Shown here piece after piece: positions 3,491 through 62,918 of a DNA stretch of 64,000 nucleotides (positions are counted from its first letter, which is position 1; each line of letters opens with the position of its first letter). The stretch comes from Clytia hemisphaerica (taxonomy: Eukaryota > Cnidaria > Hydrozoa > Leptothecata > Clytiidae). The stretch spans positions 248,001 to 312,000 of the forward strand of contig CACVBU010000064.1 of the NCBI GenBank assembly GCA_902728285.1, given 5' to 3'. The position numbers were made by a program, and so were the translations under genes. The notes below the pieces were generated by a model, which was given only the letters and a program-made list of their open reading frames with translations, was not told the origin of the DNA and made no database searches.

Positions 3491-4380
3491 ATGAATTCTC
3501 GTGAACAACAGAGAAATTCACCATTGCCCCTGAAAAACATGGGACAAAATATTTGTTTCTTTAATTCAGTTCTCCAAGCCCTCTTTTCTCTTGATGGTTT
3601 TCGTGAATACATTTTTAACCTAGTAACTGATAGTAGTCCACAGCTGGTAATTAAAGAATTGTTTACTTCTATGAAGTTCTCTGACATACCAATAGAAACA
3701 TATAGATTAATGCCATCAATCCAGCTTTTACATTACAATCACCAACTTCGTGAGCAGTTTGATGCTGAAGAATGTTTAAGGCATCTCATAAACACGGTAT
3801 ACACTTCAACTCTTGACAATAATTCTATATCTGAAAATAACATATTCCGGCTTTCATTTACTGAATCAATATTATGCCAAAATTTGTCTTATTCCATCAG
3901 AACAAAACTCTAGAAGACATCACATGCCACATCGAATTTCCTAATCCTTTTAACAATCATTCAATTGAAAATGAAATATCAAAACTTGTCAATGATCCCC
4001 ATGGAAATTTTATGGATGAGTTATATGACTGTAATGTCTGCCCGTTTCGAACAAATGCAACAAAGAATAAAACTCTTTTTCATGTCTCAGATTATTTAAT
4101 CATCCAATTAAGCATTTTCAAATTTGATAGGAAAACTCTCGCGACTGGCAAAATTGCTCCAAACTTGAATGTTGAATTGCAATTTCATAATATACTGTTA
4201 GGAACCCTTGATTTAAACGCAATTGTTTTTCACCATGGTCAAAGTCCTAATACTGGTCATTATACTGCAGCTATAAAGCATGGAGAGGTATGGTACTCTG
4301 CAAATGATAATAAGATTGAACCCATTCCGAATCCTTTCTTTCGTTGTTATGTTAATGACAAAGATTATTTATTGATTTAA
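3491..4380 (+). pseudogene. USP-type deubiquitinase (peptidase C19), intronless, frameshifted
   Basis: Two overlapping frames together make a compact ubiquitin-specific protease of about 295 residues with almost nothing outside the catalytic core. The Cys box is NMGQNICFFNSVLQAL near residue 16. The His box GQSPNTGHYTAA is near the C-terminus, followed by the Asn/Asp-type WYSANDNKIE segment. A zinc-ribbon CxxC (CNVC) is present in the second half; its first-half partner is degenerate. Frame 1 ends at 3913 and frame 2 carries on from the same place, so one base is missing near an A-run at about 3900. The gene has no introns although it lies just upstream of split PAAF1 exons. This suggests a retrocopy or a transposon-carried gene. 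If repaired it would cleave ubiquitin from substrates; as read here it is broken. Confidence 0.72.
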
Positions 4381-18142: not shown

Positions 18143-18372
18143 CGCAAAATTTTTTTCCGTAAGCGACCCAAGCCCTCATTTAGCGGTCCAAGCCCTCTTT
18201 TTAGAATTCTATGATTGCGCCAGCGGCCCAAGCCCTACTTTAGCGGTCGTAGCCCTCCGAAAAGTATTCTGCGGCTCAAAATAGCGGTCCAAGCCCTCAA
18301 ACAACGGTCCAAGCCCTCGGAAACTTAGTCACTTTTTTATTCTGGGTGATAATCAGCGGTCCAAGACCTGAA
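18143..18372 (+). repeat. Left terminal inverted repeat of the MULE
   Basis: 230 bp beginning CGCAAAATTTTTTTCCG. It contains seven iterations of an about 17-base word close to AGCGGTCCAAGCCCTC, which are likely transposase-binding sites. Its exact inverse order is seen at 29748-29977. Confidence 0.88.
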
Positions 18373-18681
18373 TATTTCTGACAACGAATTTCCTAAACCA
18401 AATTGGCCGGAAAACAAGAAATTTGATTTTTTTGTGCGCGAAATTATTATGACTTTAACGGCCCAAGGCCTTAAAGCATTATATTTAGACTTATCATTTC
18501 ATGCTACTTTTCACGGCGAAAGTGAGAGGTGTGATTTTAGACAAATGCATATAAAGCGAGTGAGTGAGTAAAAATTACGAGTGTTTGGAGATTTTAACTT
18601 GGAGTTTTTGTTGAATGAGTAATATCTGTAATATTAATTTCTTTCTTTCTTCTCAAGATTTAAAGTCTTTTTAAATTCAAA

Positions 18682-21600
18682 ATGGACGAACATGCACGTG
18701 GAAGGGTAGAATTAATTTTAGATTACTTCAAGGAAGCTAAAATCCTTACTCAGGATGGGAAGGAAGAGGATGAACAAAGTCCGAGCATAGTGTTCGAATG
18801 TGATGTCAAAAATCAAGAGGATATTGACAACTTTTTGGATTTTTATATGAATGAGACGAATGAAATCATGAAAATAAAAGTAAAAAAAACACCAGGTCAG
18901 AAGAGCATTTATGCAATCAAATCAATTTACCGATGCCATTTTGATACAAGATATGAGAATACCAGAGACGCTGAATCTATTTTGAGGAAGGACCCATCAA
19001 AACGATTCAAGAATACAATGTGTCCTTTTCAAATTTCATTCAAAGTAATCAAATGCCCCTCTCATTCGAATGCCTCTTGTCAACTCACTATGACTTACGA
19101 GCATAACCACCCAGTGAATTCCTTAGAAGCACTAAGCTTTAAAAGAATTTCGGAGGAAATTCTGATCGAAGTTCAGAACCTTTTTGAAAAGGGCAATACA
19201 CCATCCCAAGCATATCAGGAATTTCTCAGAACTCTCAAGCTACATTGTGAAGACCAAATCAAATTTCATTTGAGTAAAGCTGACAGATCAAAATGCCCAC
19301 GACGAAGAGACTTTAATTCACTTTATATAAAGTTTTGCAAAGAAAAATTTGGTGGAAAGAATGGAGCTGATATGTTTGAGAAACTTAAAGAAAGAATTAA
19401 TCAGTTTGAAGAAAACATGGACGGGATAAAAGTCGCATACCAGCTTTACAACGAGGACGAAAATTCGGCATTGATTTTGGCTATTTTGACACCTTTGATG
19501 ATAAGAGTCCACAGAATGGTAAAGACAACTATATTACATTACATTTTTTGAATTTTAAGACATGGATTTCCGAGTGGGGATGAAATGAAAGTTAATTTCC
19601 CAGTGGGGCTTAAATTACAGGGTATTTCCGGGTATTTTCCGGGTATTTTCCCAGTGGGGACCAAATTTTTGCCAAATTTTCCAGTGGGGATGGGGTCCTA
19701 GTGGGTCTGTGAAACAGGGGTATAATAATTGATTATTCACAAGAGCAGCCACCGGCTAGGAAGCCTAGGAAGTATGAAATACTTGTTCTTGAGGTCCTTT
19801 TTTCCTGGAAAAAACGAACTGTTTTGTATCCTGGACTCTCCTGGATTATATCATTTGCTCTGGGAAAAAATGAGACTCCTGTATATCTGTTCTCTTGAAA
19901 TATTATGCTCCTGGAAAAATATAACAGCTATTTTCTAAGAAAGTTATAATGTTCCTAGAAAACTTACTACAATACTGGCAATAATATTTGGGAAAAAAGG
20001 GAAATCCCCACGAAATCTGAAATCTGAAAACCAAAAATAATTTGAAAGCCCTCTAAATTAGATTGGAATGGTAGAGTTTTAACTCTGAGCTTTAACATTA
20101 GACTTAACACCTAGGACCTTAGGATCTGAGGATCCAAAAGTCCAAGAATGGTCCTACAGGGCTCAGAATATAGCCAATAAGTCCATTAACCCCACCCAAA
20201 TCGAAATATGCGGATGAATTTATCAATTAGCCCAAAAACGACTTTCTCGCCCGAACTTTAAATTGTGAAAAACGAGGAATTAACCAAAAATCTCAATATA
20301 TCATGGCCAGCATTGTAGCTTCATGTTTAGCCTTGCTCTTTCACATCACAGCAATCAACAAGTCTTACCAATATTAAATTTTCATTATGTTTTATTATGT
20401 TTGTAGGTCAGGGAATCTTCAGAAATAGTTTTCATTGACTCCACATCAAATCTCGACGAGCATAATTTGCGATTCTTTCTCTTGGTTACACATTCCGTTG
20501 CAGGTGCTTTACCACTCGGTATGTATTGCGCATAATTCTATCGCATTAAAATATTTCTCGGAATATTCATTCAGACAAAAGATATCAGACAAATCTCTAA
20601 GCTGATTGACCTCTAAACGCTTTTTGTTTTGCTACTTTTAGGGTCAATCATTTATATCATTCCATAAGTTATGAGCATTTCAGATTCTTGACAGCCTTTT
20701 TATGAAACTCTTTTTAGCTTACTAATTTGAAACTCATTGTCTTCTTGCAGGTATTATCATTACCAGCGACGAGCGAGAAGAAACTATCGTTAAAGCACTG
20801 ACCCTATACAAAGGAATACTACCGGAAGAAGCATTTTACAATAGTCCAACCGGGCCCGACATTTTTATGACAGACAATTGTGGTGAACTACGGAATAGTC
20901 TGCATAAGATATGGCCTGATTCAACTTTGCTTCTTTGCATTTTTCATATTCTCCAGCAAGTCTGGAGATGGTTGTATGATAAAAATCATGGGGTATCTCA
21001 AAACGATAGGGTTGAAATTATGAAGCTGTTTAAGAATGTCATTTACGCACTAAACTTGGAGGAATTTGAAGAGACTTCAGTCCTGCTTCAGGAGTCGAAT
21101 GTTACGTCAAAATACGAACATTGCATTTCATACTTTGAAGAGCTGTTTTCATTAAGCAAAAGTTGGGCAAAATGTTTTTCGTTCTGAAATTCTAATCCGT
21201 GGTTCACACACCAATAACTATGTGGAATCTCAATTTCTCGTTATCAAGGATTCAATTTTGAGACGACAACGTCAATTTAACATCAACATGTTGCTGGATA
21301 AATTGATGGTTGAATTCGAGGACCACTATAAGAATCGCTTACTTTCAATTGCAGACAGTACATTCGATGGAGTATATAGTCAGCGGTTTTTAAGCAGATC
21401 AAATTAAAAAAAGTGCCAGGTAAATTTTGCCTGCCTTAAATTATTGAGAAAAACAGCACTCTTCTATGGCGTCCTCCAGGTTTTCAGGTCCCCCATCTGG
21501 GGCCTAATACTCCCATTCGGTCTTTTCCAGCTATCCTTTTTCTGGGGCTCCCCCCTACTGGAAGAATATTTTTGTAACCAACAGATTCGACCGTACAGCT

Positions 21601-22878
21601 TCCGATCCATAACAATTTTTGGATGATACTTTCCTCTTCAAAAGATTACTTATAGGGATTCCTGTTTTTGTCATAAATTTACGAGGAGAGTCCTGTTTAT
21701 CTCAAAAATTTAATGGGAGCTGCTTTCTTTCTCAAAAGTACTTGGACCTGGTTTCTTTGACCTCATGTCCGACCTGGGTCCTGTTTTTACAGTACGCCTT
21801 CAAAAACAAAGAAAGGGTGTCCCGTCTGAATTATTAGATAGCAATTAAGTGTAATTTAGAGACTGTTAATTGAAAATTTAGAATGAAACATTTATATTGA
21901 AAATAAAAGCTAAAGCTAACGATTTATTTTTCCAAAAATGGTCAAATTGTCACCTTTTTTTTTCGAAAATTGCAACTAATCAACTGTTTAACTCATTATT
22001 TTAAGTTTTGATCGGGTCTTTAGTTTCCCATTGATTTTTTTTCATTCTCAGAATCTTACGATACCAAAAGCAATGTCAAAGAGATAGCTTCTGATTTGTT
22101 CACCGTCAAAAGCAAAAGTGATGAAAAGCTGGACTATGTAGTTGACATGTCCATTGGAGTGTGTGAATGTGTGGCAGGAAGAGATGGTTCACCTTGTTGG
22201 CACCAGTGCATATTATGGAAAGAAGGTTTTGCAAGGTCAGGGAATTTCTTACCGAAATTCGATAAATTTGAACGCAAAAGATTCGCTGAAATTGCATTAG
22301 GAGAGTCACTCGATATCTCATACTATGAATCCATTCATTCTGATATTAATATCCATGACCCTGAAATCTACAAATCTACGAATCTAGAATCTACCAATGA
22401 TCAAAATATGAAGCAACCACGCAACATCGAAGAAGCTTTCGGAGATACTAACGATAATAAAACAGATTTAGCTTTGAATCACTTTGGACAGTTTTCTGAA
22501 GCAATGTTAGAAAAAATCCAACAAGGTAATAAGGAATTTAATGTAGCTGTCATCAAGTTCGTCAAACGTTTTGAAACTCTTAGTCAAAATCAAAGAGTTT
22601 CTTCATTACAGAGTTTTGGTAGTACGTTCTATGGAAGGAAACGCTCAAAAATCAAAGTTCAACCAACGGCAGTTTCTAGAAGAAAGTCTGGCATCGGCAG
22701 CCGTCAAAAGCAAAGTAATTCCAAGCACAGAAGTTTACCAAATCGACACGTGAATTTAAAGAGGAAGCATAATATTACACGTGCTATAAATGAAAATGTA
22801 CCTCCAGCCAAAAAAGGTGGCGGTCGTTCGATGGTTAGCAACACTAAGCACTTTGTAAAGCAACCAATAAAGAATTAA
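18682..22878 (+). CDS. MULE transposase, four exons, two frameshifts
   Basis: Exons 18682-19518, 20407-20518, 20751-21419 and 22052-22878, with gt/ag borders and compatible phases (0, 1, 1). Exon 1 holds a FAR1/FLYWCH-like zinc-binding region (YRCHF, MCPF, then YEHNHP). Exons 2-3 hold the DDE core: first Asp in VFIDSTSN, second in FMTDNCGEL. The MULE CxxH signature follows (LLCIFHILQQVW), then the TNNYVESQF segment with the probable catalytic Glu. Exon 4 has a SWIM zinc finger (CECVAGRDGSPCWHQ) and a basic tail rich in Lys/Arg. One extra base in a T-run near 21178 and another indel in a T-run near 21388 break the frame of exon 3. The enzyme would cut and join the TIRs in the nucleus. As read, the copy is inactive unless those indels are sequence errors. 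Confidence 0.85.
19562..19724 (-). mobile_element. MITE family A fragment in transposase intron 1
   Basis: Words such as cccagtgggg recur and the end (gggtctgtgaaacaggggtata) is the inverse of the family A terminus at 12925. Only one terminus is visible. Confidence 0.5.
19985..20330 (+). repeat. Interspersed repeat family C, copy 3
   Basis: Same blocks and orientation as 7975-8280, here inside the first intron of the MULE transposase. Confidence 0.5.
21420..22051 (+). other. Third intron of the MULE transposase gene
   Basis: Starts gtaaat and ends ctcag. Filled with a gag/tcctgttttt-rich repeat similar in style to 19790-19930; no coding signature. Confidence 0.5.
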
Positions 22879-23386
22879 AAAGTGAAAAACATGACACTAT
22901 TTTTTGTATTGATGCCACAATTATTTAGTTTTATAGTTTATTTTGAGTTTTTTTGGTACATTCTTTTATTAAGGTTCTTTTCTAGGAATATCAAAGATGA
23001 AAAAATGTTGTTGAAAATAGCTCTTTTTGCTCACCACAAGTTGTCTTATCACAAGATTTACTTTTTTGTTCGCACCAGGTTATATTTTTGTTATTTAGGT
23101 ACCTCTTTGCAGGTCATGGGTCTAATTGGGAGAAAGTTGATAAATGGGCGTCTGCTTATTTAGGAAATAATTGAAAATGAGAATAAGAAAATTAAGAAAA
23201 AATTCAGCTTCGAGAAGAACTATTTTTAAATGAGCTTAGAATGAATTTTAAGACATTGTTGTTACTTTTAAACTTCATTTTTTTACTCTAATCACGATGA
23301 TATAAACAAAATTTACATGGTATGTAAAAATGAATGTTTGCAAATGAATGCAATCCTATAAACATCAAGATGTTCGCGATAATAAA
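22879..23386. other. Gap between the two convergent MULE genes
   Basis: AT-rich sequence between the transposase stop (22878) and the zinc-finger gene stop (23387). It probably holds both 3' ends. Nothing else is seen. Confidence 0.5.
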
Positions 23387-26300
23387 TTACTTGTGTTTTG
23401 TTTTTTGGTGTCTTACCATGTTGTCCTTTCGTGAAAACTTTTTGTTGCAGACAGGACACATAATATCTTTGGATTTATCATGTGTTTTCTGATGGCGACT
23501 TAATTTCGAAGCACATTCAAAACATTTTCCACATTCTGGCTTATCACACATAAACTTATGACTGTGTTTATTATCGTGGGCTTTCAATGCCTGTGGTGAC
23601 TCGAATATCAATTCACATTTTGTACATGCAAAGGTTTTTGGACATATGTTCATGTGTTCTTTTCGTCGTTTAGCGTAGTTGAATGCTGCCCCACATAAAT
23701 GACAAGGTGGTATCGTTTTTCCCTCTCTCGCTTTTGTATTGTAATTCTTAAATACAAAAGAAAAAACAAGTCATTGCTTTTTTTACTGTCCCCGTCCTAG
23801 CTAACTAAAAAACAAAAGCAAATCACCCGCAAATTTGAAGAGAAAAAGTGGACAAGAAAAGAAGTACAATCAGTTGATAACAAATGAGATACCTTTCTTT
23901 CCTCAGATGAAAGTGAATTCCACGACTTTCTAGCTTTTTTAGCAATCTCCCCGAAAGATTCATCAGATGATTTTTCCTGTAAAATCAGATGAAAATTTCT
24001 ATGCAAATAAATTCGATCAATCAAAAGAAGGATTGAAAAAATAGATATTGCTATGTTTGTTAGAAGTCTAAGATAAATTAAGACACCCCCTGGGAACCCT
24101 TTCCGCACTGGAAAAATTGTCCAAAATATCGTCCCCGGTGGGAAATTATCCTCCAATTATGATAATAATCAAATAAACCAATCCTCGCTGCAAAAATATC
24201 CCATCCCCACTGAATTTTCTGATTTGAAAACAAAAGAATTGAAATCCCCATTCATAAAATATGGGAATATCAATCCCCATCGAGTTTCAGTCCGTTATTT
24301 TCATCCCCACTGGATCCCGGGTCTGTCTGACAGGGGTGTATGAAGGACCCCCTCACTTCAATTTATGTAATCCTTATTAAGTGTTTTAAGGAAAACTGTA
24401 GTTATTAAGGTAAAAAATAAAAAAATGTATCAATGTTGTTTACTTACAAGGTTTTCACTCATGTATTTTTGCCAACCATTTAATGACAAACGGCGTTTAT
24501 GTGTTAAATCAGCTGGAATAAAAAAACACGGTTGGTCATGATACCTTAAAGGAAGAAATTTTGGCGGGAATTTAATTTGGCGGATGGACGAAAAAACTAA
24601 ATTTGGCGGGAATTTAATTTGGCGGTCGCTTAAAAAATTAACCTTAAGATGGCGTCAAAACAGCGAAAAAATAGCAAAAACACCTTAAAAGAGATCATAT
24701 TTTCAAAATGTTTAATTTGGCGGGAATTTAATTTGGCGGATGGCGGAAAAAAGAAATTTTGGCGGGAACTTAATTTGGTGGATTTCAGCCAAAACCGCCA
24801 AATCCGCCAAATTTTCTTTCTGCCAAAATTTCTTCCTTTAAGGTAATACAGACAAACTTTTTATGGACTTTGGACTTTTTTAAGTATGGATTTAGATTTT
24901 TACTACCCAGGGTTTGCTAGGAATGTTTTGGAAACATGGGTTTGCACTTTCATTGTTTTCATTCTCTAGGGGTACCTAGCTCTATAATTTTAGAAAATGT
25001 TTTTCTAAAAAAATTATGAGCTTGGGTATCCAGGCTACAATTGATTATGATTTGCATTTTAATACGCACTTTTTGTTTATATTTTTCAATAATAACGAGG
25101 CGAAAATTGGCCGATAGACGTTATCGCATTTAGAAAAAAGCGATGGATTGTGGGATTGTTATGGGAGTATTACAATCCCAGCTGGCACACAACGTTGTTT
25201 CAACGTTCATCTAACGTTCGCAACATCCATATAACATTAAATTAGCGTTAAAACTACGTTGCGTGCCAACTGGAATAGAATTCCCTCGAGATTTCTATTG
25301 TAATACCTCCATAACAATCCCACAATGCATCGTTTTTTTCTAAATGCGATAAGGTCTATTAAAGAACAAGCTGAGCCTCAGAATTTTCTGAGAAAATTTT
25401 AGAGTAACCTAAATTTTGCTCAAGAACATTTAAGCCTGAAAATTTAAAAAAATTAAGAACAACTGAGTTTCAGCCAAAATTTACTGATTGTTATAAAAAA
25501 AAGCATGAAAAAGGCTTGTAGTTATACTTATATTAGCTAATTTATTATATCTTCTTTTCTAAAGAACAATGAGTAGCTTACCACTTGTATCATTCAAAGT
25601 CTCAATTGTTTCGATTTCTTCTTCAACTTGATTGGTTTCGACTCCCATTTCTGCAGTTTCATTTTTCCTTGTAGTTTTACTTCTTGCAGTTTCATTTCTT
25701 GATGTTTCATTATCATTATTCCTTGATGTTGACGATTCAGCTTTCTAGTAAAAAGAATGATCGCGACAGTAAAAATGAACACATTACATTGCAATTCCAA
25801 CACTCACAAACGGTATATCAAAGTATTGGTTACTTAAAACACCCTTGCATCACAGCCCCAGTGGAACCTTTTTCCTCAGGATAAAAACTCTTTGACACAG
25901 GGGTGTCTTTACTGACATATCTGTAAAATACACGTTGACCACGCCCCAGAACAAAGGAACTACTAGAGCTTTTGATTTGTCAGATTTTAACAAGTGATAA
26001 ATCATAACCATCTAAGACGATGGGCGAAACTTCATGTTAGTCGTTCACATGGTTCGTATTTTACAGACTGGTCAGTAACTGGTTCAGTGGGGTTGCCACA
26101 GGAAATTTGAGCAAAAATACCCACATGTGAAAATAGTTACAGGGGTCCCATTGTTGGTATTTTTAAAATGATAACATAATATTGTAACAAGCGTCATCAA
26201 TGATAATTTGATAACAAAGTTTTGCCAAAAAGCTATAATCAATATTTTGTTCACACTGGGAAAGTTTCAAGTCAATCATATCAGTATTTCAGAAATTATC

Positions 26301-27492
26301 AAAAATTATTGCGTATTCCAAGATGCAAGCAAAAACTACACAGAAAGAAAAGGAATGCAAACAGGGACGAAGCAAACATACTTGACTAGTAGATTTCAAT
26401 CCAACATCAATCACATTGATTGTCTTATTTTGGTACCACTTGATCAAAACGGTTCTGACAAAGTCATTGTAAGCATGCATCTTTCCTACCCATGACACTT
26501 TTTCTGACAGTGGCAGACCTTGCAACACCACACATGTTCGAGTTTAGCCCTTGATATGGGAAGATATTGTCATTACATTTTCCTGTGTTAGCAAAAAGAA
26601 GGTCAAATGAGTCTATTCCGAATTGTTCTTCAAACAAAGAAGTTATAAAGTTGAGGCATTCCATTATATTTGGTGGAGCGTCCCAAACCAGAGAATCGCA
26701 ATAAAGCATTCTACCCTCAGGGATAGCTAACGATACACACACCCAGTGCGTTCCTTGAAAACCAGGTGAAAAAACAGAAAAGTAAGTTTCTCCAGAACCA
26801 TTATGTTTTCCAACGTTTGCAATAATATTCATCACTGTAATGTTCTTTTCATGTAAAGAGGCTATCAGCTTTTGAAGACAATCACCGTCGTCCTTAATAT
26901 TCTTTAATGAAGCTAAAGTGATAGAGAAAACATTTTTTCTCAATTTGTTCAGTAAATTCAAATAAAAATTTAAGACAGGCAGTGTTAGCCAACCGCTACC
27001 AATGATCGATGCCAGGTCTGATATTTCAAGTCCCGGATAATCTTTATGGGCAATTGAATAGTTATTTCCTTCGCGAATTACTGTCATAAAACTTGAGAGC
27101 GTGCTTTGATCGACCCTTTTCAAATTAATGGGTGCAGTAAAACTCTTTGAGCGGTTGAACCATGTTTTTTCTTTCGCCAACTTTACTTTGATTGACTTAA
27201 TTTGGTGAATTCTTAAACATGAATAAATTTGCTTTTGGTAATAAAAATATTCGTTTTCTACTACAGCGACTTCGGAATCGGAATCGTCATCGTCACTTTT
27301 AAAGTGTTCTATTATTTCATTACAAAAGCTAAAGGGAAGGAGAAGCTTTTCCTCGTAACCATTTTTCAGATCATCCACATTAACCTTTGGTTTGTATTCA
27401 ACAGTAGAAACTTGGATTGGAAGAGGTACAAAATAGATTTCCATGTCAGAACGTTTCAATCTATCGAATAGATAAACATCTTGAGCAGCATT
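23387..27492 (-). CDS. Ulp1-type protease - HMG box - C2H2 zinc finger protein, in the MULE
   Basis: Five minus-strand exons: 27492-26382, 25744-25582, 24512-24448, 23976-23893 and 23746-23387. Each has ag/gt borders, and the phases chain correctly (0, 1, 0, 0). Exon 1 encodes a C48 (Ulp1/SENP) protease with His in GTHWVCVSL, Asp in LYCDSLVW and Cys in NSNMCGV. A one-base indel near 26537, just after the catalytic Cys, shifts the frame. The linker exon is Ser/Thr/Glu-rich. The next three exons build an HMG box: KRRLSLNGWQKYMSEN, SFGEIAKKARKSWNSLSSEE, then NYNTKARE. Four zinc fingers follow (one CCHC, three C2H2). A 5' exon before 27492 is required; a possible one lies near 29155-29090. SUMO-type proteases deconjugate or mature ubiquitin-like modifiers, and the HMG box and fingers would bring it to DNA. 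The exons could instead be two genes; RNA evidence would settle it. Confidence 0.7.
24082..24340. mobile_element. MITE family A, most complete copy
   Basis: Starts acaccccctgggaaccc and ends ggatcccgggtctgtctgacaggggtgt-type sequence, so the ends are inverted copies. It lies in an intron of the Ulp1-HMG-zinc finger gene. Related termini occur at 12925, 19724, 25900, 41060, 41325, 41825 and 42257. Confidence 0.6.
24542..24845. mobile_element. About 300-bp MITE with 24-bp inverted ends
   Basis: TACCTTAAAGGAAGAAATTT opens the element and its inverse closes it. The interior repeats aatttggcggg words in both directions. It sits in the same intron set, upstream of the HMG exon 24512-24448. Confidence 0.7.
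25113..25365. mobile_element. MITE with a second MITE nested at its centre
   Basis: The outer arms (gatagacgttatcgcatttag and inverse; attgtgggattgttatgg and inverse) pair over about 60 bases. Inside, at about 25177-25272, is another inverted-repeat unit (cagctggcacacaacgtt ... acgttgcgtgccaactgg). The latter family also occurs at 54843-54949. Confidence 0.6.
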
Positions 27493-27626
27493 CTAAGAAG
27501 GAGAAATACATTAATATATGAGAACATGCGTATGGAGGGTCAAAAATATTTTATAATTAGTATATATAAATTTAAAGGCTTTCAAAAATAATTGACAGCT
27601 GAGACAAAACAAGCTACATGCTGAAT

Positions 27627-28740
27627 GGACCTACCTGAAGATTGATGTAATAAGACAATTGAAAAATGAGAACAATAGTATGAAAATGCAGAATAATACG
27701 AGAACAACTCGAGAAATTCATGGAATCCGGCGATTCTCGGCTGTTCTAGCGATTTTTAGAAAGTTCCTGTACCAAAATCAGTTTCATTGAAAATTGAACC
27801 ATGCTTAATCGTGGAATTCTTATAAATGATGTTTTTGTTTGAAAAAAACAAAGACATGAAACGAAAAAATCCAATGAAAATCTGCAAAAACGAAAATTTC
27901 CGGCTTTTTTGGCCGGAAAAAACATTTTCTCAAAAATCGAACTCGGTCATGTTTTGAGCATTGCGAATACACATCATTCTGCGAAAAATCAGAGAAAAAT
28001 AAGGATGAAAATTCGAGAAAATGTAAAAAAAACCGGTTTTTCCGGCATATTTCCGGCATTTTCGGCCGGAAAAAAAATGTTTTTCGAAAATCGGGCCCCG
28101 TCACATTTTAGGTATTGTCATTTTGCATCAGTGTGCAAAATTTCATAAAAAAATATAAAGTACAGCTCGAGAAATTCAAGAAATACTGTCTTTCCGGCGA
28201 AAATAGGTTGTTCCGGCGATTTTTAAATAGTTCCGGCTTCAAAAATCAATTTTATTGAAAATTGAAACATACTTGATGGTGGGCATTGCTATTAGTAATG
28301 TTTTTGAATGAAAAAAAAACCAGTTATAAGGAAAAAGTCCAATGAAAATCCAGAAAAACAGCGATTTCCGGTATATTTCCGGCATTTTCGGCCGGAAAAA
28401 ATTTTTTCTCAAAAATCGGACTCAGCCATGTTTTGTGCATTGTTAATACGCATATTTGAGCAAAAAATCAGAGAAAACTAATGATAAAATCTCGAGAAAG
28501 TGCCAAAAAACCAGTTTTTCCGGGATATTTCCGGCATTTTCGGCCGGAAAATTTTTTTTTCCGAAAATCGGGCTCCGTCACATTTTGGGCATCGCCATTT
28601 TGCATCATTGTGCAAAAAATCAGAAAAAACTAATGAGCCAATCCCGAGAAAAGCTGGCAACAGACGAACGAACGGACGAACGAACGAACGGACATGGGTT
28701 AATTTAAAGGACCTCCACCGGGGTACCCGGAGGTAGGTCC
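27627..28740. mobile_element. GGACCTACC-ended element, copy 1
   Basis: Ends are GGACCTACC and GGTAGGTCC. The body is about two and a half tandem copies of a roughly 300-450 base unit with ttccggcattttcggccgg words, then an acgaacgaacgg simple repeat. The same terminal block occurs inverted at 55464-56825. It lies inside the MULE. Confidence 0.6.
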
Positions 28741-28745
28741 AAAAA

Positions 28746-29087
28746 CTGTAACTTTTGATAGAATTTTAATAAGATAACGATTTTTGTGCTCGTTGTAAAG
28801 ATTTGTGTGGAATATTATTGACTAAAAAATATAAAATAAAAGTAAAAAATGAAGAAAAAAAGTAAACTTTGAGTACAATTGTTCTACTGTATAATATCCA
28901 TTTTCATAGGGATGATGATTTTCTGATCCTAGAACATCATCAATGTGAACAAAATGGTTATATGATAAAAAAAAATACAATAAAAGTTTATTTTGGAATT
29001 TTTTAGCCGATAATATTTCACTCATTGAAATATTTTATAACGAGCAAAAAAATCGTTATCTTATTAAAATTCTATCAAAAGTTACAG
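28746..29087. mobile_element. 342-bp palindromic MITE
   Basis: CTGTAACTTTTGATAGAATT at 28746 is inverted at 29087. The arms pair over about 50 bases with one or two mismatches. It abuts an exon-like stretch of the MULE's minus-strand gene (29155-29090). Confidence 0.75.
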
Positions 29088-29747
29088 CCTGTTTGCCTCA
29101 AGCAAATCATTTTGAATAGACTTTAGCACCTCTTTTGTGCTTAAATAGGTTGACTGGCTGGAATAAGCAGGGGGGTACAGTAAGTAATACTTCGGAAGAA
29201 AAATCATAAAGTGGTGTGAAATGAGGTATAATAAATTGCTATGGGGTGATTTTCAAGAATTTCACCTAAAGAAGGGGGAAGTATCCAATTAAATGGAAGG
29301 CAGTCGAAGTTTTCATTTTGAACTTATACTTATTATGGACGCAAGACTAAAATTCAAAAAGTTAAGGATTAAAAAGTTTTTGATTTCTTTTTACTACTGT
29401 ACACGGTCTTTCAGTTGAACTGATTATTGATTACAAGTAAGAGTTTTGAAAACCCAATTTCAAAATCCTTTCAAAGAAATCAAGAAATAAACTTACAAAA
29501 ACATCCATATTTTTTTCGCTTCTTCAGAGATCGAGAGATTTCACTTCAGAGCATACTGACATTCCAAGTGGTCGGAATAATTGTGTTAATAGAAACTTTG
29601 TTTACTTTTCTCATTAATTATTATAAACATTATAACAAAAAAGCAAAGAAAAAAAAACACGTGGCTCGTGTGCGTATAAATTCGAAGGCTTTAGTGTGAA
29701 AGCCAATTCTGTTGTTCTTTCGGCATATTTTTCTGCTTTCTAACCTT

Positions 29748-29977
29748 TTCAGGTCTTGGACCGCTGATTATCACCCAGAATAAAAAAGTGACTAAGTTTC
29801 CGAGGGCTTGGACCGTTGTTTGAGGGCTTGGACCGCTATTTTGAGCCGCAGAATACTTTTCGGAGGGCTACGACCGCTAAAGTAGGGCTTGGGCCGCTGG
29901 CGCAATCAGAGAATTCTAAAAAGAGGGCTTGGACCGCTAAATGAGGGCTTGGGTCGCTTACGGAAAAAAATTTTGCG
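29748..29977 (-). repeat. Right terminal inverted repeat of the MULE
   Basis: Inverse of 18143-18372 along its whole length, with the same seven subterminal GGACCGCT-type words. It is followed by a G-rich run with no target duplication of the left flank. Confidence 0.88.
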
Positions 29978-32025
29978 GGGGGGAGGGGGTACTCGATTTT
30001 CGACATTTTAGTGCGTACGTACTATGTGGACGGCCCCTTTGGCTGAAAAGTGTGCTGAGGTTAGGTAGGAAATCCTACTAGGTCATGTGACATTACAATA
30101 GAGCTTCAACGCTTGACCAAAGATTTATTATACACTGGATAAACGACTCATAAAATGATGGAGAGCGATCATTGTATTTTCATTGTTTCAGAAAACAATT
30201 GATGTTCTAGCTTTGTCCGCAAAGGACAACTGTTATGGCGGTTCGAAGATGTCTGATTTTTAAAAATGTTTATCAGTCTTATTTTTAAAAAGTTCTCTAG
30301 CTCTTTCTTTTTGTACATTTGCAGAAAAAAAGTTTGAAAGTAAGGCTAGCATTCCAAGCTGGATACATTTGTGAAATCTAATGTGAGAAAAACATCATTA
30401 GACAAGAAATTTAGACAAAATGCTTATAGTGACACGAAATTTTCAATTGGAAATATCTTTCCAAGACTGTCCCCAGAAGAGCTGAAATTAACATACATAA
30501 GACTTGAGTGTCTTGGCTCCACTGTGGTATGAAAATCCTTTGGAGGCACGTGGTGGCAAGGTGGTTTTTTTTAGGTTGAAGTTTGAAAATTTCCGGTGTC
30601 AACATTAAATTTCTTATACACAACACGTCTTTTGTATCTTTCTCACAGCTTGAAACGTCATAACGACATAATTAGCAATTAAGTGGAAGAATCTGACTCT
30701 CACAGGAAAGTTTTGAGTCTCTTTTGGGATTTGGATGAGTGATTTTCGATAAGAAATGCAATAAAAATGCTTCGAAAAAACATTTAATGAGGGAAGGAGA
30801 GTGAACAATAAAATCATTACTGCGGACATAGCTAGTGCACGAGAAATCGGCAAAAATCTCTTACTTTTATATCCAGTGTATAATAAATCCTTGGCTTGAC
30901 CAATAAGAAGCTTTGTGGGTTTTCGAAAACAATGGTAGCAATATTTTATGTGATATTCACTTTTTTTTGCTTGGAAGAGCTTAAAGCACGACATCTAGCC
31001 ATTCGGGCTTTAAAGAAATCCGTGGTTTATCGGTCTTTTCCATCATGAATCCAAACAACACGTACTCAACCAAATTTGGTAACCACAGCACAAAAATTAA
31101 GAGAGCAATAATCAGTTAATCTTATTGTTTAATTAAAGAATGCTTTTTCGAGATCCAATTACTTTGTTTGTTTGTGTTTTATAAGTTAACTTCAAATTTG
31201 TTTTATCTCGGCATTGTGTTTCTCTCTGACATTATAGTGTTTGTGAGCAAAATGTATTTATGTTTGGTTGGGCAGTGTATAAAGTTAAGAAAGCATCTCG
31301 TTACTTTAAAGGTTTTGTTTTTAAATAAGAGTGATATCGTTTGCTTACTCATCCCTTTTAATTCACAAGCTTTTTACATTGGATTGACACGGATGTGGAG
31401 TAAGATTGGTAAGAAAAAGGAAAAAAAACATCTTTTTGCTTATATCAGCATAATATAACAATAGCAAGACAATGTCCTGGTATGAGCGTGATATGAAACG
31501 GGAACAATTATGTAAAAACAAAAACTTTAAAAGATGATAAGGGTTACAAGATATCTGGATAATATACAGGCACTTAACAGTTTTCGGACTTTCTCTTGCG
31601 TGGTGCGGTGATGAAGATTTTTCTTAGGGCGTGATGGCGTGGATCAAGATCTTGACCTGATGGGGAATAGGGGAAGAATTTGAGGCGTGATGGTGAATTG
31701 AGCCATTTTTCGCAACTTTTAGCTTGATGACAAGTTTTAGCGATCTTTGTGATGTGTGCTAGGACATGCCATAAATTACGCGTTTCATATTACGTGAATA
31801 TAGTTGAACAGAAGTTCTTATTTCTTCACATATACCCGGTGTGTTAAAATTGAAAATTCGACGTAGCTTTTTCTACTTATGCTGATAGGCTCAATTGTTA
31901 TTTTTTTAAAACTTTGTCAGCCTAGCATGAAAAGTTACGTCAAAATTTCAATTTTAGGCCTGCTTTTTCTGACACACAAAGTATATCTAATGAATATAAT
32001 TTATTTATTTTTAGATATCTAAAAC
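29978..32025. other. Spacer between MULE and P450 gene
   Basis: Contains an inverted pair with core GATTTATTATACACTGGATA at 30119-30138 and its inverse at 30870-30890, probably the remains of an element. A repeat at 31300-31545 is shared with 50925-51175. No gene is recognised; open frames here lack domains. Confidence 0.4.
31300..31545 (+). repeat. About 245-bp interspersed repeat, copy 1
   Basis: Matches 50925-51175 in the same orientation (aataagagtg, tttgcttactcatc, ggattg, catctttttgctta blocks). Open frames within it are by-products of the repeat. Confidence 0.6.
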
Positions 32026-47969: not shown

Positions 47970-49424
47970 ATGGATACTGTTGAATCAATGGAAAAATCGC
48001 CAGCTAGAAATGGCCCTTTAAGCAATAGGATTGTGCATTTTGATTTGAAAGGTGCTCCACCCAAAATAAGTTATTTATTGGAATTGATTCCACTAGTCAG
48101 GCAATGGGGTGCTACTGGAATCTTGGTTGAATATGAAGATATGTTTCCTTACAAAAACAAACTCAGTGTTCTCTCAAAACCGTTTGCCTATAGCTCAGAC
48201 GACTTGAAACTTTTGCAAGAAGCTACAAAGTCGGAAGGGATGGATTATATTCCTTTACTTCAATCCTTTGGACACGTTGAATTTATTCTAAAGCATCATC
48301 AGTTTGAGCATCTCCGTGAGGCATCAATAAATCCAATGTCGTTATGTCCAAAGCATGAGGAATCATTACCACTGATTGAGGAAATAGTGGACCAGTTTAT
48401 GCAAGAACATCCTGATATTGAGTACCTTCATATCGGTGGTGATGAAGTATTTTGCATCAATGTTTGCAAAAAGTGTGTTGATTCTCGAGACTCGATACCA
48501 AAACTCTATTTGAGTCATATGGAGCCATTGATTTTGCTTATCCAAAACAAGTTCCCAACTTTAAAGCTTTTTGTATGGGATGATATGTTTAGAGAATTTT
48601 CTGTGCAAGAGCTTGAAGAGCTAAGCCCTCAGATAATTCCTATGGTCTGGTCATATGTAGACTATCTGGACTCCCAATTTCCAAATGATATGTGGAGACG
48701 ATACGGAAGTGTATTCGAGGAAATTTGGATAGCTACTTCTTTTAAAGGTTCTTCAGGACCTACTTGTGATCTTGTACCTATTCAGCATCATGTAAACAAC
48801 CATTTGTCATGGTTTAACCTGATTGAGAGTTTTGACCAAGAATTAAAAGTAAAGATCAAAGGAGTTGCTGTAACAGGTTGGTCACGGTATGATCATTTTG
48901 CAACATTATGTGAATTGCTACCAGCAGCTTTTCCATGTTTAGTTTTATGTTTACAAGTATTAAGACAAGGGTCCTTTACTAGGACTCTGCACGAGAACGT
49001 TTCAAAATCTCTTGGCTATGTAAATGCAATTCCATTATCTGGATATTTTAATGAGAATGGAACTGGTAATTTTCCTGGTTCAGAACTAATTGGATACATC
49101 TGTCAGCTTGAGTTTGCCAAGCGACAACTGTTAGTTCTACAAGAACGATCAGATGGTTGGATGGATGATTGGCACACAGAAGTGACACAGGAGGTCAATC
49201 TTGGACATATTGATTTCATTTATAACCTTGTAACACAAATTATTCAGCTCTATGAATCCATCCGGGGCCCAATTCAAGAATGTTTGTCCACATATTTCTA
49301 TGAAGAAACTGCACTGGAAGTTGTAAAATCAAAGATTGATAGCAAATTGAAAGTGATTAATCTTATAATGGACAAAGTACAAACTGTCAAATCATTCAAA
49401 GATAAACAATTGACCCAGTCTTAG
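47970..49424 (+). CDS. HEXD: Hexosaminidase D (GH20), intronless
   Basis: 484 residues, close to the usual length of vertebrate HEXD. It opens VHFDLKGAPPKISYLLELIP, a segment very typical of this family. The GH20 catalytic Asp-Glu pair is D158-E159 in HIGGDEVF. Other family landmarks are EYEDMFPY, QSFGHVEFILKH, LFVWDDMFRE, SFKGSSGP and VTGWSRYDH. HEXD is a nucleocytoplasmic beta-N-acetylhexosaminidase with preference for galactosaminide substrates, unlike lysosomal HEXA/HEXB, and there is no signal peptide here, in agreement. The start at 47970 is the first ATG and places the conserved segment at about residue 22. There are no introns in the coding region and no frame errors. Confidence 0.93.
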   Translation: MDTVESMEKSPARNGPLSNRIVHFDLKGAPPKISYLLELIPLVRQWGATGILVEYEDMFPYKNKLSVLSKPFAYSSDDLKLLQEATKSEGMDYIPLLQSFGHVEFILKHHQFEHLREASINPMSLCPKHEESLPLIEEIVDQFMQEHPDIEYLHIGGDEVFCINVCKKCVDSRDSIPKLYLSHMEPLILLIQNKFPTLKLFVWDDMFREFSVQELEELSPQIIPMVWSYVDYLDSQFPNDMWRRYGSVFEEIWIATSFKGSSGPTCDLVPIQHHVNNHLSWFNLIESFDQELKVKIKGVAVTGWSRYDHFATLCELLPAAFPCLVLCLQVLRQGSFTRTLHENVSKSLGYVNAIPLSGYFNENGTGNFPGSELIGYICQLEFAKRQLLVLQERSDGWMDDWHTEVTQEVNLGHIDFIYNLVTQIIQLYESIRGPIQECLSTYFYEETALEVVKSKIDSKLKVINLIMDKVQTVKSFKDKQLTQS

Positions 49425-60390: not shown

Positions 60391-61529
60391 GTATGCAAAT
60401 GTATCTTCTTATTTGGGTATTCATCTGAGATAATTATAAATCAAACTAAATACTTTTTAGTTACTTTTAACTTAGGAATATGGGATGGAGTTTTTACTAA
60501 CCTGAGATCAGATTGTGAATGTTTTCTGCACACCACGCTGAAGCTCTACTAAAGGGATGTGTGAAAACATAACAATCTGACGAATTATGCAATCTCGAAA
60601 TCGTAAGGACCGCGTTCGTCTAAAAGGACTAGGAACGACAACAAAGTTGCGTGATTGTGTTTATGAATAGGGCCCCGTATCAGTTTTTTGACTTTCCGGC
60701 GCAACAAGATTCTTGTTGTAGAATTTTCCACGGCAGGACTTTTTTCCTCAGATGTATAATTTTCAAGCACCTTCAGAGGTTTACCGTGCGCGTAAGAAAT
60801 TTATGGACAGCTGTTATGAGGTTAGTTTTTACAAGCTCTTATATGAGTTGATTAATAACCAATAATAAAACAATTTTTTTACTTTTCCTTTGTTTATTAC
60901 TTCAATTGACCAATTATTAAAGTATCACGGCACACTTTTCAGCCAAAACATTCTATCAAGCCCGGAAATTACAGAAATTTGCGGCTAAAAAGTGACTTTA
61001 ATTTTGAGCACGTTTAAAAATATGCATATAGATTATATCATGATAATATATGAGTATATAATATTTTCAATTGATTTTTGGCTGATTCGAAAAATTAAAT
61101 CAAAAAGGCGCGCGTCTTATTCTTGAAAAGCAGAATCAATAAAAGATTTTCCGAATTTTCTACTTCCGCGGCGTTGGAGGGGGCGGTTCTTTCTCTTGTT
61201 TAAAGAAAAATAAAGCACTTTATTAAACAAATCATAGAACTTGATTAAAGCAGGGGTGGGGTACAAAGGCTGGGTACTATAGCCGGGTGGTGGTGTCTAT
61301 TTTTGCATTTCAAAAAAGTTGGTACCTTTAGGGGTGAGGGTGAGTATTTTTCACTCTTCTAGCAAGTACAGGGTACTATTTGGGTACTTTTTCACAGAGT
61401 TTTGCTCCTTTTTCAATAAAAAAGTAGTCTTTTGTAACATTTTGACTTTTTTCAAACATTATTTTTTTGATTTGAAATTTTTTTTAAATGAGAAACTTTT
61501 GAGACATTTTTTGATTAAAGACAAAACTT
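60391..61529. other. Intron or downstream sequence of CCDC171
   Basis: One exon-like 27-base stretch at about 60747-60776 (cag before, gtttac after) is too short to call. The rest is AT-rich with no clear feature. Confidence 0.35.
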
Positions 61530-62918
61530 CCGAAATGGTCAAGAGGTGTGTTATTAAAATCAAAGACGAAGGTCTAGCTGCGGTCCGTAAGGCTCTTGAG
61601 CGTCGAGAGGATAAGTCTATTTCATCTGACACTCTTTTAGAACTCACTGAGCTCGTGCTTAAGAATAACATCTTTGAGCACGATGGTAGGTTTTTTAAAC
61701 AAAAGAGGGGGACTGCCATAGGTACCAAGATGGCGCCATCATACGCGATTCTTTTCATGGACGAACTCGAGCAAAGGCTTCTCGAGAGTGCCATTGACAA
61801 GCCTCTAGTATGGTGGCGGTATATTGATGATGTTTTTTTCATTTGGGAACACGGGGAAGAAAAACTTCGGTTATTTTTAGATCATCTTAACCAAGCTGAG
61901 TCTAGCATTAAGTTTACCGCTAATTTTTCTCAAGATTCAGTTGAATTCCTGGATGTTAAAGTTATTCGTCATGGGGATAGTCTAGTAACCGATCTCTACA
62001 TAAAGCCCACTGATACGCACCAATATCTCCATGCGTCTTCCTGTCATGTGTATCACTCGAAACGCTCGATACCATACAGTCAGGCTCTTCGACTCAATCG
62101 CATCTGTTCAGAGCCTAGTTTTTTTCGACCAACGGTGCTATCAGCTTCAACGGTGGCTTTTGGAGAGAGGTTATAAAGAGAAGATGGTACGTGATCAGAT
62201 CCTTAGAGCGCGTGAACATAAACGCGACGATCTCCTTTTTCGAGAACGGGGGAAAAAGACCAACCCAGGGATAGTGTTAAATATTACTTACCATCCTTCT
62301 TATTCTAGGCTAAAGTCGATATTATCTAAGATCCATATCTTGCTAACACCTGACAATGAACACTGCAATCTTTTCCGAAACGTCCCGGTTGTTGGTTTTA
62401 AGCGGGGGAAAAGTCTTAAAGATCTTTTGGTTCGTGCTAAGTTGCCTGTTAAATCAGAGGGCAACGAGGGTAGTGGTCGATGTGGAGGAAAACGCTGCGG
62501 CGTCTGTCCCTTTATAAAAGAGACAGGTTCATTCTCAGGTAAGGACGGCAAAGAATATAAGATCAGGGCGAAGAACTTGAATTGTAACTCCAAATGTGTT
62601 GTATACTTATTCACCTGCAAAACTTGCCGTATACAATATGTTGGTAGCGCTAGCACTCCTTTTCGATCTAGGTTTAACAATTACAAGTGCTGCCATAGGA
62701 AACACAAATCAGGTTCTATCGTTACCCAAGCCTCCTTTCATGCACATTTCGAACAGGCAGACCATCACGGTATGGATGATTGGGAACTTACTCTAATCGA
62801 TGAGGCTCCAGATCTTCCATCAGTACGCCGTAGGGAGTCATTTTGGCAATATAAACTAAACTCATTTGCTCCCTATGGTCTAAATGATCGAGATGTGCCG
62901 TTAGAGGACTTTGGCTAG
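61530..62918 (+). pseudogene. Penelope-like retroelement ORF (RT plus GIY-YIG), 5'-truncated and frameshifted
   Basis: The frame from about 61530 enters a Penelope-type reverse transcriptase in mid-domain. It shows RGTAIGTKMAPSYAILFMDE (motif B) and WWRYIDDVFFIW (motif C, catalytic Asp pair). The upstream part with motif A is absent. Near 62129 a T-run shifts the frame. The second frame carries on (DQRCYQLQRWLLERGY), reaches a Cys-rich linker (CGGKRCGVCPFI) and then a GIY-YIG endonuclease (VVYLFTCKTCRIQYVGSAST, with RSRF), and stops at 62916-62918. Penelope-like elements use this nuclease to prime reverse transcription. The copy cannot be active, lacking the N-terminal half. Confidence 0.85.

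Follow-up and report, generated by a model that had tools for sequence, protein, structure and literature searches.

Why would a DNA transposon in an animal carry, beside its transposase gene, a second gene in which a predicted protease is joined to DNA-binding modules? The question is raised by a locus in a 64,000-nt stretch of DNA (hereafter the window) from the hydrozoan Clytia hemisphaerica. A first-pass annotation had described this locus as a Mutator-like element (MULE) with 230-bp inverted repeats, a gene for a transposase and, convergent with it, one for an Ulp1 protease, an HMG box and zinc fingers, all in an animal genome. As described below, this outline holds, while the novelty and the origin that it assigned to the protease gene do not.

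A damaged copy of a two-gene MULE

It was confirmed that the locus is one damaged copy of a group of two-gene Mutator-like DNA transposons of Clytia (Table 1). Its terminal inverted repeats (TIRs) are long, as is expected of a MULE, and in an inverted-repeat search of the window the two 230-nt arms were 100% complementary. A MULE transposase domain (PF10551) was matched at 20726-21184 with 28.8 bits against a cut-off of 27.6. MULEs are also recognized by target-site duplications of 8-11 bp. In each of the four further copies of which both ends were read (C920, C340, C826 and C810), a 9-bp duplication was seen by eye, whereas none was found in the flanks of the window copy. In the copies with duplications, the real end of the element lies one base inward (GCAAAATTT..., by eye), which gives a TIR of 229 bp. 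The TIR of the window has at least 49 matches in the Clytia genome, and the best 13 are 98-100% identical to it. C920 is 98.4% identical to the window copy in a single alignment that covers the element and runs about 600 bp into the right flank. The 9-bp duplications in four of four copies and the near-identical TIRs show that this element group was mobile in the past.

Table 1. Features of the element copy, in window positions
Feature	Position	Strand	Remarks
Whole MULE copy	18143..29977	.	11,835 bp (~11.8 kb); without target-site duplication
Left TIR	18143..18372	+	230 bp
Seven-site array of the 15-bp motif AGCGRYCSAAGMCCT, left TIR	18162..18369	+	starts 18162, 18182, 18222, 18242, 18283, 18303, 18355
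Transposase exon 1, N-terminal domain, Cys/His zinc-binding-like pattern (by eye)	18682..19530	+	289-codon open frame; end approximate, taken from Clytia protein P0004
Transposase exon, first catalytic Asp (FIDSTSNLDEHNLRFFLL...)	20407..20523	+	
Transposase exon, second Asp, C..H and Glu motifs (by eye)	20726..21404	+	PF10551 match
Transposase C-terminal exon, SWIM-like CxC...CxH, basic tail (by eye)	22024..22878	+	
Second gene, last exon to stop: HMG-box end and four zinc fingers	23387..23746	-	
Second gene, HMG-box exon 2	23893..23976	-	
Second gene, HMG-box exon 1	24448..24512	-	
Second gene, linker exon	25582..25744	-	GT-AG and phase
Second gene, Ulp1-like protease exon	26382..27492	-	His/Asp/Gln/Cys present
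Right TIR	29748..29977	-	230 bp
Mirror-image seven-site array, right TIR	29751..29958	-	

The first gene codes for a DDE (MULE) transposase, which would move the element by cut and paste and leave the 9-bp target duplications. Its first exon has 88 matching rows in the genome; no Pfam model scored above its cut-off on that exon, and the Pfam SWIM model did not match the C-terminal exon. In the protein database, 113 relatives of the transposase were found, including proteins of Clytia, of Dendronephthya gigantea and, weakly, of the fungus Rhizophagus irregularis. The window copy is damaged in both genes: the Ulp1 frame is lost just past the catalytic Cys, and the transposase is frame-shifted in the exon with the PF10551 match, which is continuous in C920 and C340.

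The second gene encodes a predicted Ulp1/SENP-type protease

Read in the convergent direction, the second gene is predicted to encode an Ulp1/SENP-type cysteine protease domain, then an HMG box, then four C2H2-like fingers, in a protein of about 600 residues (a length taken from the C308 relative). An independent gene model, the public Clytia gene prediction P0117 (578 residues), also places the Ulp1 exon and the fingers in one protein, and leaves out HMG exon 2. P0117 was the single match when the protein database was searched with the second gene; within the sensitivity of that search, no relative was found in any other named species. Viral contigs scanned with P0001 gave no relative.

Is the N-terminal part really an Ulp1-like protease? 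The Pfam model PF02902 did not match the frame of the window, C364 or P0117. Among the relatives scanned, only P0002 passes the cut-off (23.5 vs 20.7); L071, L080, P0001 and L077 scored 13.1-14.9 bits, and L076 gave no match. Since Pfam failed on the window frame, the question was put instead to a profile built from relatives and to a fold prediction. The profile matched yeast Ulp1 (1euv) with an E-value of 6.1e-6. The fold was modeled on the C364 frame (mean pLDDT 68), and all 29 PDB matches at E <= 0.001 were Ulp1, SENP or NEDP1/Den1, with modest TM scores of 0.34-0.46 by query length. Foldseek again matched 1euv (E 1.3e-5, probability 1.00, TM 0.44 by query length). The protein database yielded three Ulp1 relatives; in an alignment of 11 sequences, including three database proteins, one of them a fragment, each of the residues His, Asp, Gln and Cys is nearly invariant (at least 90%). 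The predicted fold and the conserved His-Asp-Gln-Cys set support the assignment to Ulp1/SENP-type proteases.

The domain may instead be dead, or a fold used only for binding, in which case the second gene would regulate the element through DNA binding, as an activator or a repressor. The C928 copy (L075) has Asn at the position of the catalytic His, and the Ulp1 exon carries lesions in C920 and in the window copy, and separate frame breaks in C364 and C340. However, the near-invariance of the four residues argues against a dead domain, as do the Ulp1 frames without stops at C306 and at both C308 loci, and I regard this explanation as improbable.

The HMG box is spread over three exons and reached a Pfam cut-off only after these were joined (HMG_box_2, 22.4 bits for a cut-off of 22.4); PF00505 scored 21.8 on the joined window exons, under its cut-off of 25.4. 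When the C308 exons were scanned, no HMG model was among the best 25 of 50 rows. In the finger exon, PF00096 matched three finger stretches (1.6e-14), and the fourth finger, the N-terminal-most (first), is CCHC-like by eye.

The second gene looks old rather than captured

Does the second gene belong to the element? A tally was made of every row of the genome matches to PF10551, Ulp1, the fingers, and the first and last transposase exons, with a distance limit of 12 kb. An Ulp1 or finger row lies within this limit of 17 of the 91 PF10551 rows, where about 0.9 would be expected by naive chance, and the arrangement is convergent in 16 of the 17. Both counts were unchanged between a tally with 27 of the 145 finger rows and one with all rows (MULE 91/91 and Ulp1 27/27 in both). 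At 23 loci both the first and the last transposase exons were present; a convergent piece of the second gene was seen at 17 of these and no piece at 6. When clusters with a match to either exon of the window transposase were counted, 21 of 67 were positive, and the piece was absent in 45; many of these are single-exon fragments or N-domain-only elements, and six have both exons.

The first-pass annotation had named two observations that would count against it: TIR copies lacking the second gene, and second genes found consistently outside TIRs. The former do exist. They include miniature elements as well as C810 and C826, two deletion derivatives that retain the first transposase exon but not the DDE exons; in four single-end copies (C170, C695, C558 and C408), no second-gene exon aligned in the ~13 kb read. 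In my reading, all of these are non-autonomous or broken. For the latter, the signs are weak. Among the 20 best finger rows, 17 have a transposase exon no farther than 12 kb away and three have none; of the 27 Ulp1 rows, 16 have one at this distance and 11 do not, two of these 11 being C364, where the contig ends inside an element. Purifying selection, about which the annotation had also asked, was found for the HMG and finger exons. Compared with the C882 family, these have a dN/dS of 0.15 (40.5 nonsynonymous changes per 325 sites and 40.5 synonymous changes per 77 sites; Fisher p 7e-13 with rounded counts). Among the close copies C920, C340, C364 and C651, the changes were too few to be informative.

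MULEs are described as tending to acquire fragments of host genes (PMC6446971), and the second gene could be such a captured host gene, carried as functionless cargo like that of a Pack-MULE. But the gene and its convergent orientation are kept in families whose Ulp1 sequences are as little as ~25-30% identical, its intron phases are identical in the two families compared, and its HMG and finger exons are under purifying selection. Moreover, the three distant finger rows (C70, C539 and C486) lie amid other finger matches and not beside an Ulp1 row. The insert therefore differs from that of a Pack-MULE, which would have been copied from the host recently. Because of this conservation and selection, I reject both the host-capture and the dead-passenger readings, and consider such an origin very improbable. 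The word "capture" used in the first-pass annotation is misleading, since the gene is common to several diverged families. From the sequence comparisons, it looks like an old, long-standing part of the element.

A spaced motif array in the TIRs

Each TIR carries seven sites of a 15-bp motif, a feature absent from the first-pass annotation. In four of the five array-bearing families compared, the first six sites lie at offsets 0, 20, 60, 80, 121 and 141 although the spacers have diverged; in the array alignment, motif columns are 76-83% identical and spacers 23-50%. The C680 family has a different site spacing. Genome-wide, 109 core pairs were found at the 20-bp spacing, against none for the reversed pattern and none at a 22-bp spacing. 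The 15-mer with up to four substitutions occurs 35 times, on both strands, in the 52 kb of the window outside the element. Because of these chance occurrences, single matches mean little, and it is the number, order and spacing of the sites in the TIRs that carry the argument. The stretches read at C661 and C853 contain finger exons but showed no array.

What binds these sites? Array sites are kept in miniature and N-domain-only elements that lack the second gene, so they may be there for the transposase only. Most likely, the TIRs are platforms of candidate binding sites for the transposase, the second-gene protein, or both. The finger contact residues (by eye), read with the zinc-finger code, predict roughly xAG-GGx, which is compatible with GAGGGCTTGG in the window TIR. 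This match is short, was made after the fact and is weaker in other families, and it was not counted as evidence. From one family to the next the finger helices and their contact residues hardly change, whereas the motif does, so that these residues do not link the fingers to the motif.

Possible role of the second gene

I lean towards an account in which the HMG-finger part of this two-gene MULE brings the predicted protease to the element's own ends, countering silencing or aiding transposition. The HMG-finger part would most likely take the protease there, where it would strip SUMO or a related modifier off chromatin or repressor proteins; the element would then escape silencing, or transposition would proceed. 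Local removal of SUMO/Ubl at the element is likely by analogy, as suggested by the plant KIU/VANC proteins. The idea in the first-pass annotation that the transposon edits SUMO/NEDD8 marks on its target chromatin is likewise an inference.

The second gene may act in the transposition reaction and not in silencing, taking SUMO or ubiquitin off the transposase or off DNA-repair proteins at the excision site. A similar role for transposon Ulp1/OTU domains is proposed in the Ginger paper (PMC2836005). A Peptidase_C48 match also adjoins another MULE lineage of the genome, on the same strand, at six loci (by eye), so that the pairing occurs in more than one arrangement. However, a role in the reaction gives no reason for joining the protease to an HMG box and zinc fingers, and I hold it possible but not probable.

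With delivery of the protease to the element's ends as the preferred account, a bolder and quite tentative proposal is that animal MULEs carry an element-specific anti-silencing factor, namely a self-encoded predicted SUMO/Ubl protease anchored by the HMG box and fingers on the seven-site array. SUMO is described as promoting Argonaute-directed silencing in C. elegans (PMC8131101). It is conceivable, if somewhat doubtful, that such a factor removes modifiers needed by small-RNA-guided silencing, as an animal counterpart of plant VANC/KIU built from other domains.

Transposons that are not related to each other (MULEs, Ginger and Crypton) repeatedly carry Ulp1-like proteases. In Clytia, a laboratory-kept and genetically manipulable animal, the predicted protease lies in a separate gene with its own DNA-binding modules, and the element's ends hold a rigid array of candidate sites. 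Binding, substrate and silencing effect can therefore each be tested separately, which offers a route to why such elements carry proteases.

Comparison with known systems

In plants, VANC proteins are described as recognizing motifs, often in tandem repeats, in their MULEs and as causing loss of DNA methylation (PMC5735166); some VANC genes carry Ulp1 and are called KIU (PMC13317346). In the VANDAL MULEs of Arabidopsis (Kaonashi), KIU/VANC-Ulp1 resembles the Clytia case in being an accessory gene that combines Ulp1 with recognition of the element, the VANC targets often being tandem repeats in the element (PMC13317346, PMC5735166). In contrast, the plant elements are non-TIR, whereas the Clytia element has long TIRs, a fixed seven-site array, an HMG box and C2H2 fingers. 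The VANC domains DUF1985 and DUF287 (Pfam) did not match the second-gene pieces scanned or P0117.

Among animals, a MULE with Ulp1 is not new, contrary to the first-pass annotation: Mutator elements of hydra, another hydrozoan, and of the lancelet were already known to encode Ulp1, as PMC2836005 states with reference to Repbase Reports of 2008-2009. These may be the same group as the Clytia elements; the citing description, on which this comparison is based, does not state a separate convergent HMG-finger gene in the part used here. Ginger1 is likewise a transposon with Ulp1 in a hydrozoan (Hydra), but it is described with a Gypsy-integrase-like transposase that has Ulp1 at its C-terminus (PMC2836005). 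Tm1, a Mutator/Foldback element of root-knot nematodes, shares with the Clytia group the 9-bp target duplications and internally repeated TIRs of an animal MULE, but the portion of its description drawn on here mentions no Ulp1 and describes no fixed-spacing array (PMC3169594). Beyond the Ulp1 already known from animal MULEs, the separate Ulp1-HMG-finger gene and the fixed array look like new features of the Clytia elements.

Structure of the window copy

The first-pass annotation had described two inverted arms at the ends of the element, and these were borne out (Table). Between them, the plus-strand transposase gene matches PF10551 at 28.8 bits (Pfam cut-off, 27.6); its short exon with the first catalytic Asp was outside the range of the first Pfam scan.

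Features of the window
Feature	Position	Strand	Remark
Left TIR	18143-18372		230 nt, fully complementary to the right arm
Right TIR	29748-29977		230 nt, fully complementary to the left arm
Transposase exon with first catalytic Asp	20407-20523	+	recognized by comparison with two related loci and with P0004, a public Clytia transposase relative
Transposase exon	20726-21404	+	frame-shifted; open throughout in the copies on contigs C920 and C340
Flank in common with the C920 copy	29978-31180		includes a repeat of ~780 bp with dozens of genome copies
Ubiquitin hydrolase exons	3491-4380
Cytochrome P450	32026-33564		512 codons, single frame
Glycosyl hydrolase 20 frame	47970-49424
Reverse transcriptase, then GIY-YIG nuclease domain	61319-62918		a combination known from Penelope-like elements

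The second gene lies on the minus strand. Its five exons, which are bounded by GT-AG and fit together in phase, encode a Ulp1-like domain, a linker, an HMG box over three exons, and four zinc fingers, in this order. The joined HMG exons score exactly at the Pfam cut-off, and Pfam gave no Ulp1 match for the Ulp1 frame of the window copy. A profile of eleven related sequences found yeast Ulp1 at E 6.1e-6 and matched bacterial enzymes of the same fold better still (1e-7). When the Ulp1 frame of contig C364 was modelled (mean pLDDT 68), all 29 of the 29 structure matches at E <= 0.001 were Ulp1, SENP, or NEDP1, with modest TM-scores. P0117, a public Clytia protein model, independently fuses Ulp1 and the fingers in one protein, skipping the second HMG exon. 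A relative on C308 has the HMG exons and the fingers with identical intron phases (by eye). The Ulp1 sequence of another locus, L075 (G000:C928), has Asn at the catalytic His position and is otherwise nearly identical to the C308 copy.

The Ulp1 exon of the window copy is no longer open through to its end; it falls 57 nt short of the C364 exon, and the frame stops just past the catalytic Cys. The C920 copy has the same short exon. Since the transposase is frame-shifted and the Ulp1 frame ends early, the window copy is most likely not autonomous. A BEL/Pao-type fragment, matching DUF1759 in Pfam, adjoins its left end. The right flank is common to the window and C920 copies over the 1.2 kb tested, and the C920 copy is flanked by a perfect 9-bp duplication, whereas the window copy has none. 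Thus, the left border of the window copy has probably been rearranged.

The TIR array and the TIR family

Each TIR of the window copy contains seven 15-bp sites. With the comparison anchored on the first site only, offsets 0, 20, 60, 80, 121, and 141 are common to four families (window, C308b, C308a/C306, and C839), with a seventh site at 183-193. The C680 family has an array with other spacings, and no array was seen in the C661 and C853 stretches compared. Between families, the motif columns of the six shared sites are 76-83% identical and the spacers 23-50%. Mean motif identity, 0.79 in register, dropped to 0.57-0.61 when the motif frame was shifted to one side and to 0.65-0.71 when it was shifted to the other. 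Loose single matches are frequent by chance (35 in 52 kb). Genome-wide, 109 core pairs were found at 20-bp spacing, against no pairs for the reversed core pattern or 22-bp spacing. The array is the trace expected of a multi-site protein-binding platform, with the transposase, the second-gene protein, or both as candidate binders.

The TIR was found in at least 49 places in the genome of Clytia hemisphaerica, a hydrozoan cnidarian (417 Mb in 951 contigs). There are three long copies (window, C920, and C340), two deletion derivatives (C826 and C810), several single ends, and miniature elements with ~54 bp of end in common. The conserved end was present in 11 of the 11 miniature loci read, and both ends in nine.

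One mini-element of ~1.25 kb (L095, G000:C851:614100-615700), flanked by a 9-bp duplication (by eye), has a seven-site TIR at both ends and a frame of 205 codons for the transposase N-terminal domain alone. It is reminiscent of derivatives that act as repressors, for instance the KP form of the P element. About ten further matches to this domain alone were found (e.g., C352, C341, C515, C949, and C672); only L095 was read.

Pairing of the transposase and the second gene

Is the second gene a part of the element? Every match of five genome searches was tallied with a distance limit of 12 kb. An Ulp1 or finger match lies within this distance of 17 of the 91 PF10551 matches, convergently in 16 (the exception is on C694), against a naive chance expectation of about 0.9. 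The transposase matches were grouped into 135 clusters, 67 of which include a match to the first or the last exon of the transposase in the window copy; a convergent second-gene piece accompanies 21 of these, one has another orientation, and 45 have none. Among clusters with both outer exons, the convergent piece is present in 17 of 23 and no second-gene piece in six (C188, C281, C626, C753, C850, and C915).

Finger matches lie near a transposase match in 17 of the best 20, 18 of the best 25, and 21 of all 145, most of which are host finger genes judging by their surroundings. For Ulp1, 16 of 27 matches are near a transposase match and 11 are not, two of the latter being on C364, where the contig ends inside an element. 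Wherever both are present, the fingers sit between the transposase and Ulp1. Arrays in opposite orientation bracket the transposase, fingers, and Ulp1 on C308 (array pairs 1325554-1336255) and C566, and the transposase and fingers on C839, where the Ulp1 match is absent. On C306, TIRs bracket the transposase and Ulp1; the fingers and the last transposase exon were not found. By these genomic arrangements, the second gene is a component of the element. Against the C882 family, dN/dS is 0.15 for the HMG and finger exons and 0.32 for the Ulp1 exon, in which the C882 copy has six new stops; among close copies, the differences are too few for a test.

In another MULE lineage, the MULE match is followed on the same strand, ~2.5-3.7 kb downstream, by a Peptidase_C48 match. 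Six such loci were recognized by eye (C207, C340 at 1024-1028 kb, C735, C417, C899, and C118), a second arrangement of Ulp1-MULE pairing.

Possible function and comparison with known systems

The transposase would move the element. The second protein combines a protease fold, relatives of which act on SUMO-like modifiers, with two kinds of DNA-binding module, and the site arrays at both ends suggest local recruitment. In C. elegans, SUMO acts to promote silencing directed by Argonaute (PMC8131101). The VANC proteins of plant MULEs lift silencing and recognize motifs in related elements (PMC5735166; PMC13317346), and some of them carry Ulp1 (PMC13317346). Because of the role of SUMO in C. elegans silencing and the VANC parallel, I favor the idea that local removal of modifiers may shield the element from silencing. 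The main rival is that the second gene instead helps the transposition reaction.

The word Ulp1 is absent from the main text of a broad MULE survey (PMC6446971), and no Ulp1-HMG-finger gene in a MULE was found described in the portions covered of the open-licence full-text literature, Repbase Reports excluded. Ulp1 in animal MULEs is already on record for hydra and lancelet (PMC2836005). Thus, within the open-licence literature covered, Ulp1 in an animal MULE is known, and the Ulp1-HMG-finger gene of Clytia looks like a new form of this pairing.
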